A stretch of DNA of 30,382 nucleotides. Source: a virus. Position 1 is the stretch's first letter, and every line of letters begins with the position of its first letter. Positions 3,844-24,706 of the stretch are shown here, in pieces. The notes under the pieces are model-generated. The model was given only the letters and a program-made list of their open reading frames with translations. It was not told the DNA's origin and did not search any database. The stretch lies in IMG/VR virus record IMGVR_UViG_3300029309_000222, positions 1 to 30,382 of that record, one strand, 5' to 3'. A program made the position numbers and the translations under genes.

Positions 3844-3962
3844 ACAAGATTATAATTATGAAAGCAAAAAAATGGTCAAAATGGGTATGGATAAAAGCTA
3901 AAAATAATCCAATGTACTCAATACCACTAATTTTAATTATTGCTTATCTTATGTGGAAATAA
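3840..3962 (+). CDS. 40-residue single-pass membrane protein
   Basis: The ORF starts at ATG 3840, overlapping the previous stop as ATGA, and ends with TAA at 3960-3962. The N-terminal half is basic with three Trp (KKWSKWVWIKAK). The C-terminal half is one hydrophobic helix (YSIPLILIIAYLMW). The coupled start, the short gap to the next gene and the sharp polar/hydrophobic split argue that it is real. A membrane-active peptide in a structural operon is unusual; a virion, ejection or lysis-timing role is speculation. Confidence 0.5.
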   Translation: MNKIIIMKAKKWSKWVWIKAKNNPMYSIPLILIIAYLMWK

Positions 3963-3965
3963 ATA

Positions 3966-4451
3966 ATGACAAATTTTACTGGTGCAAATGTTATTACTGC
4001 AAGTGATGTTACGAAATATCAACCTGATGTTTTTGAGTTTGGTATTGCATCTGGCTCAACAGAAGCAACAAATTATTTTGCACAAACCACAAACGATATT
4101 TTAAGACAGCTTAGAATAGAATGGTTTCCAACTTATAAAACAAATGTCTACACAGATATTACAGTTTTAAATACTGTTGAGATGGACAATACAAAAGTAA
4201 ATTTAGATCAGTTTGAAAGAGCTGGTGTATATTTATTTCTTGGTAGATTCCTTTTACCAGCACTTACAAAATTTAGACCAGAAGCTGACAAAGACAGATT
4301 TGAAAGAATGGGTGAATATTATATGGCTGAATATAACAAAGAGTTTAGAGCAATACTTGAAGATGGTGTTGAATATGACTCTACAGCAGATGGCTCTATA
4401 GTTTCAAATGAAAGAGAACCTTTACATGGCTACAGACGATTAAATAGATAA
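3966..4451 (+). CDS. Head-tail connector (adaptor) protein
   Basis: 161 residues. A short N-terminal segment with ITASDVTKYQPDVFEFG is followed by alpha-helical text (TTNDILRQLRIEWFPTY; FERAGVYLFLGRFLLPALTKFRPEADKDRFERMGEYYMAEY), as in the helical adaptor proteins that dock under the portal (HK97 gp6/SPP1 gp15 type). Its place between the capsid and the gp10-like neck gene fits. The stop shares bases with the next start (TAATG at 4449-4453). Assignment is by order and helical character, not by a catalytic motif. Confidence 0.68.
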   Translation: MTNFTGANVITASDVTKYQPDVFEFGIASGSTEATNYFAQTTNDILRQLRIEWFPTYKTNVYTDITVLNTVEMDNTKVNLDQFERAGVYLFLGRFLLPALTKFRPEADKDRFERMGEYYMAEYNKEFRAILEDGVEYDSTADGSIVSNEREPLHGYRRLNR

Positions 4452-22223: not shown

Positions 22224-22566
22224 ATCCATTCCTCTCTCTCTTTAAAAATTTATAATTGTTTTCAATAAGTGGTTTTACAAAGTAATCAGCATCACATTCA
22301 AACAATTCGCAAAGCTTTAACTCATTCCATTTTGGACAAGCATTTGCACCTTTTTCATATTTTTGTATTTGTTGAAATGTAACATTAACTGCTTTTGCAA
22401 CTCTAGTCTGTGTATATCCTCTCATAAGTCTAATCTTCTTTAGCTGACAGCCATACACTTTTCTAAAGACTTTTTCGTTTTGTTCGTCTGATATTCCGAA
22501 CTGATTTAGATAAGATGGTATGATACCATTGATCTCTTGTATCTTATCTTCATTTTTTATTATCAT
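22207..22566 (-). CDS. XRE-family transcriptional regulator
   Basis: 119 residues. A helix-turn-helix domain spans about 41-98 with the XRE pattern LKKIRLMRGYTQTRVAKAVN, then VTFQQIQKYEKGANACPKWNELKLCEL and an ECDADYF end. The N-terminal 40 residues are extra and may dimerise. It is encoded inside the leftward block, a typical place for a cI-like or early regulator acting on the divergent region 23869-24167. It overlaps the nuclease gene by 17 nt, and its start lies in the previous gene. No integrase accompanies it. Confidence 0.85.
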   Translation of the reverse strand: MIIKNEDKIQEINGIIPSYLNQFGISDEQNEKVFRKVYGCQLKKIRLMRGYTQTRVAKAVNVTFQQIQKYEKGANACPKWNELKLCELFECDADYFVKPLIENNYKFLKRERNGYANSY

Positions 22567-22753
22567 AAAATGACCATTCCTTTTTCTCTCTATCGCTTAA
22601 TCTATTAAATTGATCTTTCCAACAAGTACGACAGAGTAATGACTCATTGAAAAGAGTTTTACCAGAAAACCAAGCTAATTTATCTGCATCATCTATAAAA
22701 CATCTTGCACATTGAAAGCTTAGTTTGATAATTTTTGCTGTGGGTTTTGTCAT
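22550..22753 (-). CDS. Small zinc-ribbon-like protein
   Basis: 67 residues with two CxxC pairs, QCARC near residue 15 and CRTC near 41, spaced as in zinc ribbons. A helical tail follows (KDQFNRLSDREKKEWSFYDN). It may bind DNA, RNA or a host protein such as RNA polymerase. AGGAG sits 5 nt before the ATG within an AGGAGAGAGA leader. Its stop region overlaps the XRE start by 17 nt, linking the two. Confidence 0.66.
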   Translation of the reverse strand: MTKPTAKIIKLSFQCARCFIDDADKLAWFSGKTLFNESLLCRTCWKDQFNRLSDREKKEWSFYDNKK

Positions 22754-22761
22754 TCTCTCTC

Positions 22762-23070
22762 CTAATCTAATATCGAATGTCCACGATTTTTAAGACATTC
22801 TCTATTTATTTTTTTTGATTTTAATTCATCAGCTTTGACAAAGCCAACAGTTCCTAATTCTACATATTTAGCAAAAGCAAACCTTGTGTAATCAAACACT
22901 AAATTTACATTTTCTTTTACCAATTCTTCACATAGAATTTGATCGTTAGTCAAATCTTCTGCTCTTGAATAGTCGAAAGTACCTGAACGACCTTTAGTAT
23001 CAACAACCATTTTAGGAACACAAGCTTGTAAAAGACATACAAGTAGGGCTAAAAAAAGTATCTTTTTCAT
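22762..23070 (-). CDS. Small lipoprotein
   Basis: 102 residues. A classic lipoprotein signal peptide: MKKILFLALLVCLLQAC with lipobox LLQAC, so the mature protein would start at Cys17. The body has VDTKGRSGTFDYSRAEDLTN near the N-terminus, one internal Cys in DQILCEEL, one in NRECLKNRGHSILD, and Tyr/Phe-rich helices. I associate the K-GRSGTF and NRGHS ends with small marine bacterial and phage lipoproteins (memory). Located beside a phage regulator, a role in superinfection exclusion or envelope modification is plausible but unproven. Confidence 0.77.
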   Translation of the reverse strand: MKKILFLALLVCLLQACVPKMVVDTKGRSGTFDYSRAEDLTNDQILCEELVKENVNLVFDYTRFAFAKYVELGTVGFVKADELKSKKINRECLKNRGHSILD

Positions 23071-23094
23071 ATCTATTTATCCTCTCTCTACAGA

Positions 23095-23370
23095 CTATTT
23101 GGGTGATACTTTATCTGATGTATCTTCCAAGCCATCTGTTTTTTTCTTTTCCGTAGCTTTTTCATCTTTTCCAACAAATCTTTTTCTTGAATTAAAGCTT
23201 TGTCGTACTTTGATTGAAGCTTTGGGAGTGCCTTTAACATTAGCTTTCTCCTTTTTTATTATAGTTACTACTTCATCTAAAGTAGTATTTGGGTAAAACT
23301 CACCCAAATTCTTTTGCATATCTTGTAACAAATCAAAGTTTTTGTTTCTAGTTTTTATTTTAATAATCAT
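23095..23370 (-). CDS. Small basic protein of unknown function
   Basis: 91 residues. A short alpha/beta start (MIIKIKTRNKNFDLLQDMQKN, then FYPNTTLDEVVTIIKKEK) is followed by a disordered Lys-rich tail containing KASIKVRQSFNSRKRFVGKD. No family recognised. The ribosome site AAGGAAAGAG lies upstream of ATG 23370. It is followed by a 24-nt gap before the lipoprotein start. Confidence 0.6.
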   Translation of the reverse strand: MIIKIKTRNKNFDLLQDMQKNLGEFYPNTTLDEVVTIIKKEKANVKGTPKASIKVRQSFNSRKRFVGKDEKATEKKKTDGLEDTSDKVSPK

Positions 23371-23383
23371 GCATGCTCTTTCC

Positions 23384-23602
23384 TTATCTGTTATATTTAC
23401 TTTTTAATGCATTTAAAACATCAGATAACTTTTCTGGTCTAGCATTTAAAATATTCTCTAAATCCCAAGCTAATTCCATTTGAACAGCAAAATCTATATC
23501 TGATCTTGATGTTTTTCTTCCACCCCTCATTTTATCTTTTTCTCTTATTTCTTTTATATTTTCGTGAAAAACATCTAGTTGAATATTATGTGCAGTTATC
23601 AT
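23384..23602 (-). CDS. Small helical protein of unknown function
   Basis: 72 residues, mostly helical and rich in Asp/Glu/Arg: VFHENIKEIREKDKM, SRSDIDFAVQMELAWDLENI, EKLSDVLNALKSKYNR. Its AGAGAGAG leader (plus strand CTCTCTCT at 23607-23614) is one of the repeated GAGAGAG-type sites. It overlaps the stop of the first leftward gene by 1 nt. Function unknown. Confidence 0.62.
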   Translation of the reverse strand: MITAHNIQLDVFHENIKEIREKDKMRGGRKTSRSDIDFAVQMELAWDLENILNARPEKLSDVLNALKSKYNR

Positions 23603-23868
23603 TATGCTCTCTCTTTTTTTTTAATATCAGCTAATCTATTGTTATACATTCTTACACCAAGTTCGTCTTGCTTTGAAAGGTCTGCAAAATGTAAATGATT
23701 AAACTCAACATTTACTAAACCTGATCTAGCAAAACTCATAACTTTGGCATACTTGTTTCCAATTTTAGCAATTACCCCAAAAGTACCACTTACATATTGA
23801 GGGTACTCACTCCATTGGTCTCGGTCAATTTGTATAAAATCTCCGACGTTAAAATTTTCTTTTTTCAT
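23602..23868 (-). CDS. First leftward gene; small KOW/SH3-like protein
   Basis: 88 residues from ATG 23868, chosen over ATG 23895 because GGAGAGAG (complement of 23873-23880) is well placed before it. Text: FNVGDFIQIDRDQWSEYPQY, GTFGVIAKIGNKYAKVMSF, VNVEFNHLHFADL. This is a five-strand barrel-like pattern similar to KOW/SH3 or small RNA/DNA-binding folds, then a basic helix. As the first gene of the leftward unit it may be an early control factor. Its leader can pair fully with the terminator loop at 24129-24138. Confidence 0.63.
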   Translation of the reverse strand: MKKENFNVGDFIQIDRDQWSEYPQYVSGTFGVIAKIGNKYAKVMSFARSGLVNVEFNHLHFADLSKQDELGVRMYNNRLADIKKKERA

Positions 23869-23914
23869 TATACTCTCTCCTTTTTTATTTTTCATACTAA
23901 AAATGTATATTATT

Positions 23915-23979
23915 GAGTTGTATTATCAAGCATTAATTTACCGCATAAAACCTAGCTTTTTTAACATCACATACAACTC
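23915..23979. repeat. Inverted repeat GAGTTGTAT / ATACAACTC
   Basis: GAGTTGTAT (23915-23923) is the exact reverse complement of ATACAACTC (23971-23979), 47 nt apart. In an AT-rich control region beside an XRE regulator this is a candidate operator pair. A 9-bp match could occur by chance, so support is modest. Confidence 0.45.
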
Positions 23980-24003
23980 TAGCTATTAATTTGCATCATA
24001 AAA
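23932..24003 (+). repeat. Two direct repeats ATTAATTT-N5-ATAAAA
   Basis: 23932-23950 and 23985-24003 share ATTAATTT, a 5-nt spacer, then ATAAAA (14 of 19 positions fixed). Their starts are 53 bp apart, close to five helical turns, so the same face of DNA is presented. They may be operator half-sites or origin-like repeats. Confidence 0.5.
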
Positions 24004-24019
24004 GCAAATCAGTTACAAA
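23991..24019 (+). promoter_or_regulatory. Possible sigma70-type rightward promoter
   Basis: TTGCAT (23991-23996) and TACAAA (24014-24019) are separated by 17 nt, a usable but weak sigma70 pair. Initiation about 7 nt downstream would start RNA near 24026, precisely where the structured element begins. This is a prediction from pattern only. Confidence 0.33.
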
Positions 24020-24087
24020 TCAAAATAAGATATGAAAAAATTTAATATTTATGTTAAGAGAGATTATTGCTCCCGAAGCAATATAAG

Positions 24088-24101
24088 TATAAATTCATAT
24101 C
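24088..24101 (+). promoter_or_regulatory. 14-bp element TATAAATTCATATC, copy 2
   Basis: Identical to 19974-19987 on the same strand. Its 3' part forms the right arm of the outer stem (TTCATATCTTA), and the left arm (24026-24036) is an inverted partial copy (GATATGAA). So three related TTCATATC units occur in likely control positions. Confidence 0.42.
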
Positions 24102-24118
24102 TTACTTAGGTTAATTAA

Positions 24119-24153
24119 GGTAGCGGACTACTCTCTCTGTCCGCTATCTTTTT
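24119..24153 (+). terminator. Rho-independent terminator with CUCUCUCU loop
   Basis: GGTAGCGGAC (24119-24128) pairs with GTCCGCTATC (24139-24148) over 10 bp with one G-T wobble, followed by TTTTT (24149-24153). The loop is TACTCTCTCT. The GC content of the stem stands out from the flanking AT-rich DNA. It lies just 14 nt before the ATG at 24168, so it would act as an attenuator for rightward transcription or as the end of a small RNA. Confidence 0.8.
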
Positions 24154-24162
24154 AGAGAGAGG
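24154..24162 (+). promoter_or_regulatory. AGAGAGAGG ribosome-binding site, complementary to terminator loop
   Basis: AGAGAGAGG sits 5 nt before ATG 24168, a usable purine-rich ribosome site. Its first 8 bases are the exact complement of the loop CTCTCTCT (24131-24138), so in read-through RNA the loop could mask the site as a pseudoknot. Similar GAGAGAG leaders precede genes starting at 22223, 22753, 23070, 23602, 23868 and 24696. Confidence 0.66.
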
Positions 24163-24167
24163 AAAAT

Positions 24168-24467
24168 ATGAAACAATTAGAGTTGGAGTACCCAGCACAT
24201 AATTATACTGAAACAAGCAAGTCAGCTTACAAAAAACAAAAACCAAAATTAAAAACTAAAAGAGAAAAGGTTTTGGAATTTGTAAAATCGCAATCATCAA
24301 CTAATTATCAAATTGCAGATGAATTAGAGATGCCATTATCTAGTGTATGTGCTAGAGTTCGAGAGTTACAGCTTTTAGAACTTATTGAAGATAGTGGACA
24401 TAGACGAGAAACACCTTATGGAAAAACAGCGATAGTATGGCAAACAAAAAAGAACGAGAATACATGA
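24168..24467 (+). CDS. Winged-helix DNA-binding protein
   Basis: 99 residues. A basic linker (about 15-40) leads to KREKVLEFVKSQSSTNYQIA, then LEMPLSSVCARVRELQLLELIEDSGHR and GKTAIVWQ. This is the helix-turn-helix plus wing layout of small MarR/ArsR-like or phage DNA-binding proteins: tri-helical core, recognition helix SSVCARVREL, beta wing ending in VWQ. As the first rightward gene it may regulate early or replication genes. Expression probably depends on the attenuator just upstream. No acid or drug-binding domain is present. Confidence 0.75.
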   Translation: MKQLELEYPAHNYTETSKSAYKKQKPKLKTKREKVLEFVKSQSSTNYQIADELEMPLSSVCARVRELQLLELIEDSGHRRETPYGKTAIVWQTKKNENT

Positions 24468-24706
24468 GTAAGGTTGCAAGTCTTGGCTGTTGGATTTGTG
24501 AAGCACCAGCTAATGTTCATCACATAAGACCAAAAGGTTTAGGTATGGGTAGAAGATCATCTCATTATGATACAATTCCATTGTGTTACTTTCATCATCA
24601 AGGTCAGGGTGGAATACATCATAATAAAAAAATCTTTGAACAAAAGTATGGTACTGAATTAGAAATATTAGCCAAAGTAAAAGAGAGGATAAAAAATGAG
24701 TCGTAA
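24437..24706 (+). CDS. Ref-like HNH nuclease
   Basis: 89 residues. After KKEREYMSKVASLGC come WICEAPANVHHIRPKGLGMG, SSHYDTIPLCYFHHQGQG, and GIHHNKKIFEQKYGTE. The C-x-x-C pair, HHIR, a PLC-x-x-HHQG block and IHH match the compact zinc/HNH fold of Ref-type RecA-dependent nucleases and DUF968-like phage proteins. I kept ATG 24437 because the KKEREYM segment precedes the Cys pair in that family; ATG 24464 is an alternative. Likely roles are recombination or replication-fork processing. Confidence 0.77.
   Translation: MANKKEREYMSKVASLGCWICEAPANVHHIRPKGLGMGRRSSHYDTIPLCYFHHQGQGGIHHNKKIFEQKYGTELEILAKVKERIKNES

Follow-up and report, generated by a model that had tools for sequence, protein, structure and literature searches.

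A predicted two-domain leader RNA with a conserved CUCUC loop heads an early operon in a group of SAR11 phages

The window analysed here is the whole of a 30,382-base viral record (IMGVR_UViG_3300029309_000222), for which sequence searches identified pelagiphages HTVC026P, HTVC111P and HTVC202P as relatives. Its first 20 kb were occupied by structural genes, and divergent early operons begin at 23.9-24.2 kb. The rightward operon comprises a 99-aa gene, an HNH gene resembling DUF968/RecA-dependent nucleases and a DnaD-like gene; in the leftward operon small genes accompany an HTH regulator gene and one resembling exonucleases. At the head of the rightward operon the following features were seen.

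24004..24028, + strand: conserved block with CAAATCAGTTACAAATCAAAATAA, directly upstream of the leader RNA; similar blocks in relatives
24029..24101, + strand: domain 1 (P1 GATATGA/TCATATC, inner helices, internal loop), from matches of covariance model R1 and from folds
24057..24063, + strand: AGAGAGA in the domain-1 internal loop (GAGAG at 24058-24062), with which the CUCUC loop may pair intramolecularly
24065..24083, + strand: P3, a small hairpin (TATTGCT CCCGA AGCAATA), with a GNRA tetraloop in most relatives outside the window's clade
24085..24090, + strand: near-invariant AAGTAT after P3, in 56/57 distinct domain-1 sequences
24117..24150, + strand: hairpin 2, from folds and from several Watson-Crick pair types per stem position among relatives
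24129..24138, + strand: loop UACUCUCUCU, 10 nt, with a conserved CUCUC core (CUCUC in 48/49 distinct hairpins)
24149..24153, + strand: run of U 3' of hairpin 2, confined to the window's clade (window, L004-L007)
24168..24467, + strand: first rightward early gene, 99 aa, PHROG 1123, no assigned function

A hairpin with an exposed loop had been noticed here by the first-pass annotation, and it withstood analysis: the window displayed a 12-bp stem (24117-24128 / 24139-24150) and a 10-nt loop, UACUCUCUCU, unpaired in both the minimum-energy and the centroid structures predicted. That annotation was right about the hairpin and missed a larger RNA. Judged from comparison of relatives, hairpin 2 makes up the 3' half of a leader RNA with two domains, located at the head of the rightward early operon; domain 1 of this RNA carries a GAGAG of its own. 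Blocks like CAAATCA..., TATAAAA and CGAATCA precede domain 1 in relatives, and the block at 24004..24028 is probably the promoter and transcript start region.

Domain 1 consisted of the outer helix P1, an inner AU helix and, on the 5' side, a long unpaired stretch with GAGAG. A compensatory change in P1 turned GATATGA/TCATATC into GTTATG/CATAAC in the HTVC026P group. P3 occurred in 22 distinct versions with pair changes, 15 of them with a GNRA loop; one of these 22 entries (L063, L065, L203) was mis-picked, and L049, which lacks AAGTAT, was left out of the count. The window's own minimum-energy fold did not contain the P3 helix in its family form. Fold z-scores of eight members lay between -3.5 and -6.6 for seven and at -2.7 for one. 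The GATATGA inverted repeat was also considered as a DNA operator, a reading lowered by the compensatory changes in P3 and in the stem and by variable helix length. In many relatives AAGTAT (24085-24090) is complementary to ATACT(T) just 3' of P1 (24102-24108); the two may form an alternative helix or a pseudoknot in competition with P1. Hairpin 2 was misaligned by MAFFT, and the RNAalifold result was not used for its stem; a loop-to-site helix proposed by RNAalifold was rejected as an artefact of the same alignment.

Copies of the element were gathered by pattern scans and with the covariance model of domain 1 (R1), starting from the DNA that precedes the first gene's viral relatives (57 loci, of which 54 were examined). 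The leader RNA was found in 77 distinct copies, nearly all of which came from viral contigs or from three SAR11 phage isolates; in searches of phage collections HTVC026P, HTVC111P and HTVC202P were the only true relatives. R1 detected no element in HTVC023P, HTVC027P and HTVC104P, and an exact 20-mer pattern search of genome contigs gave 0 matches. A host origin was ruled against by the R1 search of 147 SAR11-family genomes (0 matches), for which the positive control recovered 4/6 phage records, the two misses being type II members (described below) that lie outside the R1 model. At least eight different first genes were encountered downstream, so the element belongs to the head of the early operon and not to one gene.

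Rfam appears to lack the family to which this leader RNA belongs: the window gave 0 matches to Rfam 15 above the gathering threshold, and the best sub-threshold match over 23880-24180 was PrrF (16.6 bits against a gathering value of 90). A literature search on pelagiphages, mainly of open-access papers, gave no prior description of the leader RNA among the matches listed, and the single pelagiphage transcriptome located covers other phages, with no mention of small RNA, noncoding, promoter or intergenic. Early gene control is essentially unknown in phages of SAR11, the most abundant ocean bacteria; a conserved structured RNA whose pairing code can be tested, placed where an early operon begins, is a concrete entry point.

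All eight loop-proximal positions of the hairpin 2 stem displayed several pair types (49 distinct sequences), and the inner six-pair stems fell into 32 distinct versions with a mean identity of 31%. CUCUC was kept on 31 of these 32 unrelated stems, against 4.3 expected when each loop was shuffled. This comparative result is the strong evidence concerning the loop; as far as sequence conservation tells, the loop is selected for its sequence and the stem drifts freely. Small RNAs of the RepG or SmelA075 type share this trait, a pyrimidine loop that stays constant while its stem changes freely.

The first-pass annotation had described the loop as the exact complement of AGAGAGAG at 24154-24161, in the ribosome site of the gene at 24168, as able to form a 10-nt pairing, one G-U included, with the sequence before the first leftward gene, and as matching several further early leaders. 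All these pairings were recovered by duplex computation. The partners in the window are as follows.

24154..24162, + strand: AGAGAGAGG, cis site (ribosome site of the 24168 gene); duplex -12.8 kcal/mol
23871..23880, - strand: GGAGAGAGTA, leader of the first leftward gene; 10-bp match with one G-U, -14.9 kcal/mol
23607..23614, - strand: AGAGAGAG, leader of the gene starting at 23602; loop duplex -12.4 kcal/mol
23082..23089, - strand: AGAGAGAG, leader of gene D (starts at 23070); loop duplex -12.8 kcal/mol
22753..22762, - strand: GGAGAGAGA, leader of the gene starting at 22753; loop duplex -12.4 kcal/mol
22584..22593, - strand: AGAGAGAA, leader of the HTH gene starting at 22566; loop duplex -9.4 kcal/mol
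22232..22243, - strand: AAAGAGAGAGAG, leader of exonuclease gene G (starts at 22229); loop duplex -13.0 kcal/mol
24680..24687, + strand: AAAGAGAG, leader of DnaD-like gene R3 (starts at 24696); loop duplex -8.8 kcal/mol

The leader at 23370 paired weakly (-6.0). With at most one mismatch, AGAGAGAG occurred 32 times in the whole window against 21.8 +/- 5.8, a mild excess reached by 6/100 shuffles; the signal was clearer for GAGAG, which stood 4-10 nt before ATG 12 times against 4.7 +/- 2.4 (1/100 shuffles), eight of these 12 sites falling at early starts. At <= -8.5 kcal/mol the window loop bound 7/24 early versus 2/25 late leaders (cis leader excluded); among shuffled loops of the same composition, 35/1000 reached seven early leaders and 11/1000 the early-late difference. 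The pairing signal from the window by itself was above chance and not overwhelming. As in anti-ribosome-site sRNAs of the RepG or SmelA075 type, the loop is complementary to the ribosome-site tracts of several messages more often than by chance, here without covariation of the flanks.

Two candidate partners in the leader itself were compared over 73 distinct combinations of element, loop and leader. The CUCUC loop and the domain-1 GAGAG, whose duplex was computed at -9.5 kcal/mol for the window (AGAGAGA), occurred together in 71/73 combinations; L211 displayed GAGGG in domain 1 instead of GAGAG, and L037 was the sole copy of the 73 in which both loop and domain-1 GAGAG were lost. The cis ribosome site was more variable, with GAGAG in 42/73, GGGAG in 19/73 and neither in 12/73 (L037 included). 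Loop and domain-1 GAGAG were both kept despite cis sites changed to AAAGGAAG (L093, L142, L221), GAAAGTTGG (L145) or CAGGAG (HTVC026P, L034), and because of these six members the cis site is not the sole reason for the loop. When loops were exchanged within the CUCUC class, shuffles paired as well in 1943/2000 cases for domain 1, 139/2000 for the cis site, 1679/2000 for D, 506/2000 for G and 1273/2000 for R3; the match between loop and partner in this class is a fixed core and not a fine covariation.

Outside the window the contrast between early and late genes was borne out, as the earlier view of a GAGAG family limited to early genes had anticipated. With annotated starts of the three isolates, GAGAG was found upstream of 18/82 early versus 5/106 late genes (Fisher p = 5e-4); among first-ATG ORFs of the window the values were 6/28 and 1/30. 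Other pelagiphages (first-ATG ORFs in the first 45 kb of each) displayed GAGAG in 1/67 (HTVC023P), 0/72 (HTVC027P) and 3/76 (HTVC104P), that is 4/215 in total, and host ORFs in 2/145. On this comparative basis, GAGAG leaders are a mark of early genes within this phage group, one not shared by late genes, by other pelagiphages or by the host; GAGAG is a ribosome-site variant confined to early genes of one phage group. Shine-Dalgarno-like motifs were seldom seen in leaders of SAR11 ORFs (host stretches L432-L439; GGAG in 5/145), while purine sites were frequent in phages.

Three early genes accounted for a difference between loop classes (distinct leaders). GAGAG was found for gene D in 36/44 leaders from CUCUC-loop phages versus 0/5 from phages with other loops, for gene G in 28/33 versus 1/6 and for gene R3 in 36/41 versus 1/5. 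Pooled, these gave 100/118 versus 2/16 with nominal p = 1e-8; D, G and R3 were selected after the leader table had been seen; the leaders are moreover related by descent, and the class test is confounded by kinship, with about three independent loop changes (type II as one group, the separate single loss in L037 and a further change in L258). The concatenated tree was mosaic and served only for the placement of L037 among CUCUC-loop phages and of type II as one group. Genes F (3/41 versus 0/6), I (0/27 versus 0/4) and R2 (1/33 versus 1/5) seldom displayed GAGAG in either class. Genes C and E displayed it in 5/19 each in CUCUC-loop phages and had no counterpart in other-loop phages. The GAGAG leader of the HTH gene starting at 22566 was not conserved in other phages (3/41). 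Several CUCUC-loop phages lacked GAGAG before gene D, and L037 had lost the loop yet kept GGAGAG in its R3 leader. The GAGAG before gene D mostly ended 9-13 nt from the start codon, which is far for a ribosome site; gene D of other-loop phages displayed GGAG or GGAA closer to the start.

The members designated type II (L038/L238, L239, L240, L244, L245, L256 and L259) displayed a different domain 1 lacking GAGAG, a CUCCCU loop and an AGGGAG cis site; two further pattern scans added no new type II members. Their non-cis leaders contained GAGAG once versus GGGAG four times among 47, compared with 112 GAGAG and 19 GGGAG-only among 577 in the main class (shift p = 0.003). Type II loops bound two to three of their own leaders at <= -8 (cis leader counted), and a CUCUCUC loop zero to one. 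L258 displayed loop CUUCAUCC with an AGAGATA site, and none of the 11 leaders of this phage matched its loop well. L010 combined a domain 1 similar to type II, lacking GAGAG, with a CUCUC loop and with GAGAG in the leaders of D and R3. Since type II RNAs and L010 lack the domain-1 GAGAG, docking of the loop on domain 1 is not universal. Covariation of loop and leaders, put forward in the first-pass annotation as a check, gave a mixed outcome: loop classes co-switched with their leaders, and loop-flank covariation was absent within the main class.

Comparison of the copies brings out a predicted structured leader RNA, a selected CUCUC loop, a complementary tract in domain 1 and group-specific GAGAG leaders on early genes. 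The leader RNA is probably a base-pairing regulator, in either direction, and its CUCUC loop may, together with the GAGAG tracts, tune early-gene translation. The reading that we favour, tentatively and short of calling it probable, is a two-domain leader RNA whose loop would dock on the domain-1 GAGAG and compete for early ribosome sites. The loop would act through base pairing. At rest it would be docked on the GAGAG of its own RNA; in competition with docking it would pair with the GAGAG ribosome-site tracts of early messages, those of its own gene in most members and of several genes in both early operons. Pairing there would lower translation, and domain 1 would serve as a built-in decoy setting the amount of free loop. 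A fuller version is more doubtful: a self-gated anti-ribosome-site riboregulator whose CUCUC loop would target an early regulon with a private GAGAG code and carry its own GAGAG decoy, loop and regulon code having co-switched at least once (CUCUC/GAGAG to CUCCCU/GGGAG). Were it true, an abundant marine virus group would possess an RNA-only circuit of early-gene control. For the compact early-gene switch proposed in the first-pass annotation, support came from the conservation of the loop sequence and from the early-only leaders; the terminated RNA and the cis pseudoknot as a rule were not supported.

Several other explanations were weighed against docking. The leader, entire or processed, might present its loop in trans to the ribosome sites of early messages alone, without docking, domain 1 being a stabiliser or protein site and its GAGAG incidental. 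The joint switching of loop and early leaders would agree with this, as would the loop-leader matches retained by L010 and type II without a domain-1 GAGAG; in the main class, however, the domain-1 GAGAG is kept as strictly as the loop itself (71/73), and the family shows neither a conserved terminator nor a processing signal by which a small RNA could be set free. We rate this explanation as rather unlikely. Equally unlikely is a purely internal role, in which loop and domain-1 GAGAG hold a compact fold that serves the stability of the messenger, the loading of ribosomes or, as a put-like antiterminator, transcription; the GAGAG leaders would then be a separate habit of these phages. It would account for the 71/73 co-occurrence and the joint loss in L037, and the position at early operon heads before at least eight different first genes resembles a general transcript-start device; type II and L010, however, lack the inner partner, and nothing in this explanation accounts for GAGAG leaders being restricted to early genes or for their changing together with the loop. 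The put antitermination RNAs of phage HK022 are two-domain structured RNAs near the start of an early transcript and act on RNA polymerase. By description only, they share the two domains and this location with the phage leader RNA, and they have no known anti-ribosome-site loop.

The remaining explanations are improbable. According to one, a cis pseudoknot would let the loop cover the ribosome site just downstream and control the first gene only; a pseudoknot switch was one of two possibilities named in the first-pass annotation. GAGAG or GGGAG cis sites do accompany the CUCUC loop and the domain-1 GAGAG in 60/73 copies (41 + 19), CUCCCU loops face AGGGAG in type II, and loop exchange gave a weak best fit to the cis leader. 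Complementarity to the own site was nevertheless not found in all members: 11/73 copies keep the CUCUC loop with neither GAGAG nor GGGAG in cis, and the rule fails on them. The linker of 3-6 nt between stem and cis site would also have to span a stem of usually 12-15 bp, for which it looks short by known pseudoknot geometry. We regard this pseudoknot as a slight possibility. An intrinsic terminator or attenuator before the early operon is more improbable still. A GC-rich stem followed immediately by four to five U was found in the window's clade (window, L004-L007), and the earlier description of a terminated RNA fits that clade; among 51 parsed copies, only one displayed at least four T within 8 nt past the stem. 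Because the U-run is confined to this clade, hairpin 2 is not a conserved terminator. Moreover, the site was absent from a terminator scan of the window (with a loop limit of 8), and termination would not conserve a loop sequence. Just as remote is the idea that GAGAG is a protein target, recognised by a RegB-like nuclease or by a protein that represses translation of early messages, and that the CUCUC loop masks or mimics it, the match being a by-product. RegB of T4 acts on ribosome sites with GGAG and inactivates early messages there (consensus GGAGRAYARAA; PMC3014915), and several leaders here read GGAGAGAATA. RegB resembles the present case in that a purine motif in the ribosome site singles out early messages, and differs in being a protein nuclease in place of an RNA loop in the phage leader. 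Against a protein target, no RegB relative was found among the ten early proteins scanned, and the near-invariant complementary loop would be left unexplained.

By mechanism, the closest analogues of the favoured docking RNA, alike in loop logic, are RepG and the sRNAs with CCUCCUCCC loops. RepG, an sRNA of Helicobacter pylori, has a C/U-rich terminator loop as its seed for binding messenger leaders at a simple purine tract (PMC8295292), which parallels the pyrimidine-rich hairpin loop and purine leader tracts of the phage RNA. RepG is free-standing and terminated and has few targets, whereas the phage hairpin forms part of a leader, in most members lacks a terminator and has a GAGAG partner within its own RNA. 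The alphaproteobacterial sRNAs SmelA075/SmelA099 and RSs0680a display conserved CCUCCUCCC anti-ribosome-site loops on freely varying stems, and were proposed to block the ribosome sites of many messages (PMC3927594). The conserved anti-ribosome-site loop on a drifting stem would be shared with the phage leader RNA. The cellular RNAs comprise several hairpin modules with a canonical anti-SD loop and are stress-induced, in contrast to the CUCUC loop and non-canonical GAGAG set of the phage RNA in one phage group.

Three minor observations concern the isolates. Among the tail genes of HTVC111P and HTVC026P stands one annotated as a toxin-activating lysine acyltransferase (gp50 and gp47, respectively). 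In HTVC202P (L002) the annotated CDS gp12 (3889-4077) reads straight through the leader RNA (R1 match 3917-4007); because its frame overlaps a structured leader RNA, gp12 is probably a spurious gene call. In HTVC026P (L001; 850-940, minus strand) and in L030, L032, L034, L045 and L050, the RNA points away from the operon that contains the homologues of the first gene, the HTH gene and the exonuclease gene. This subgroup has its early operon inverted and other genes downstream of the RNA, which stays at the divergent junction.
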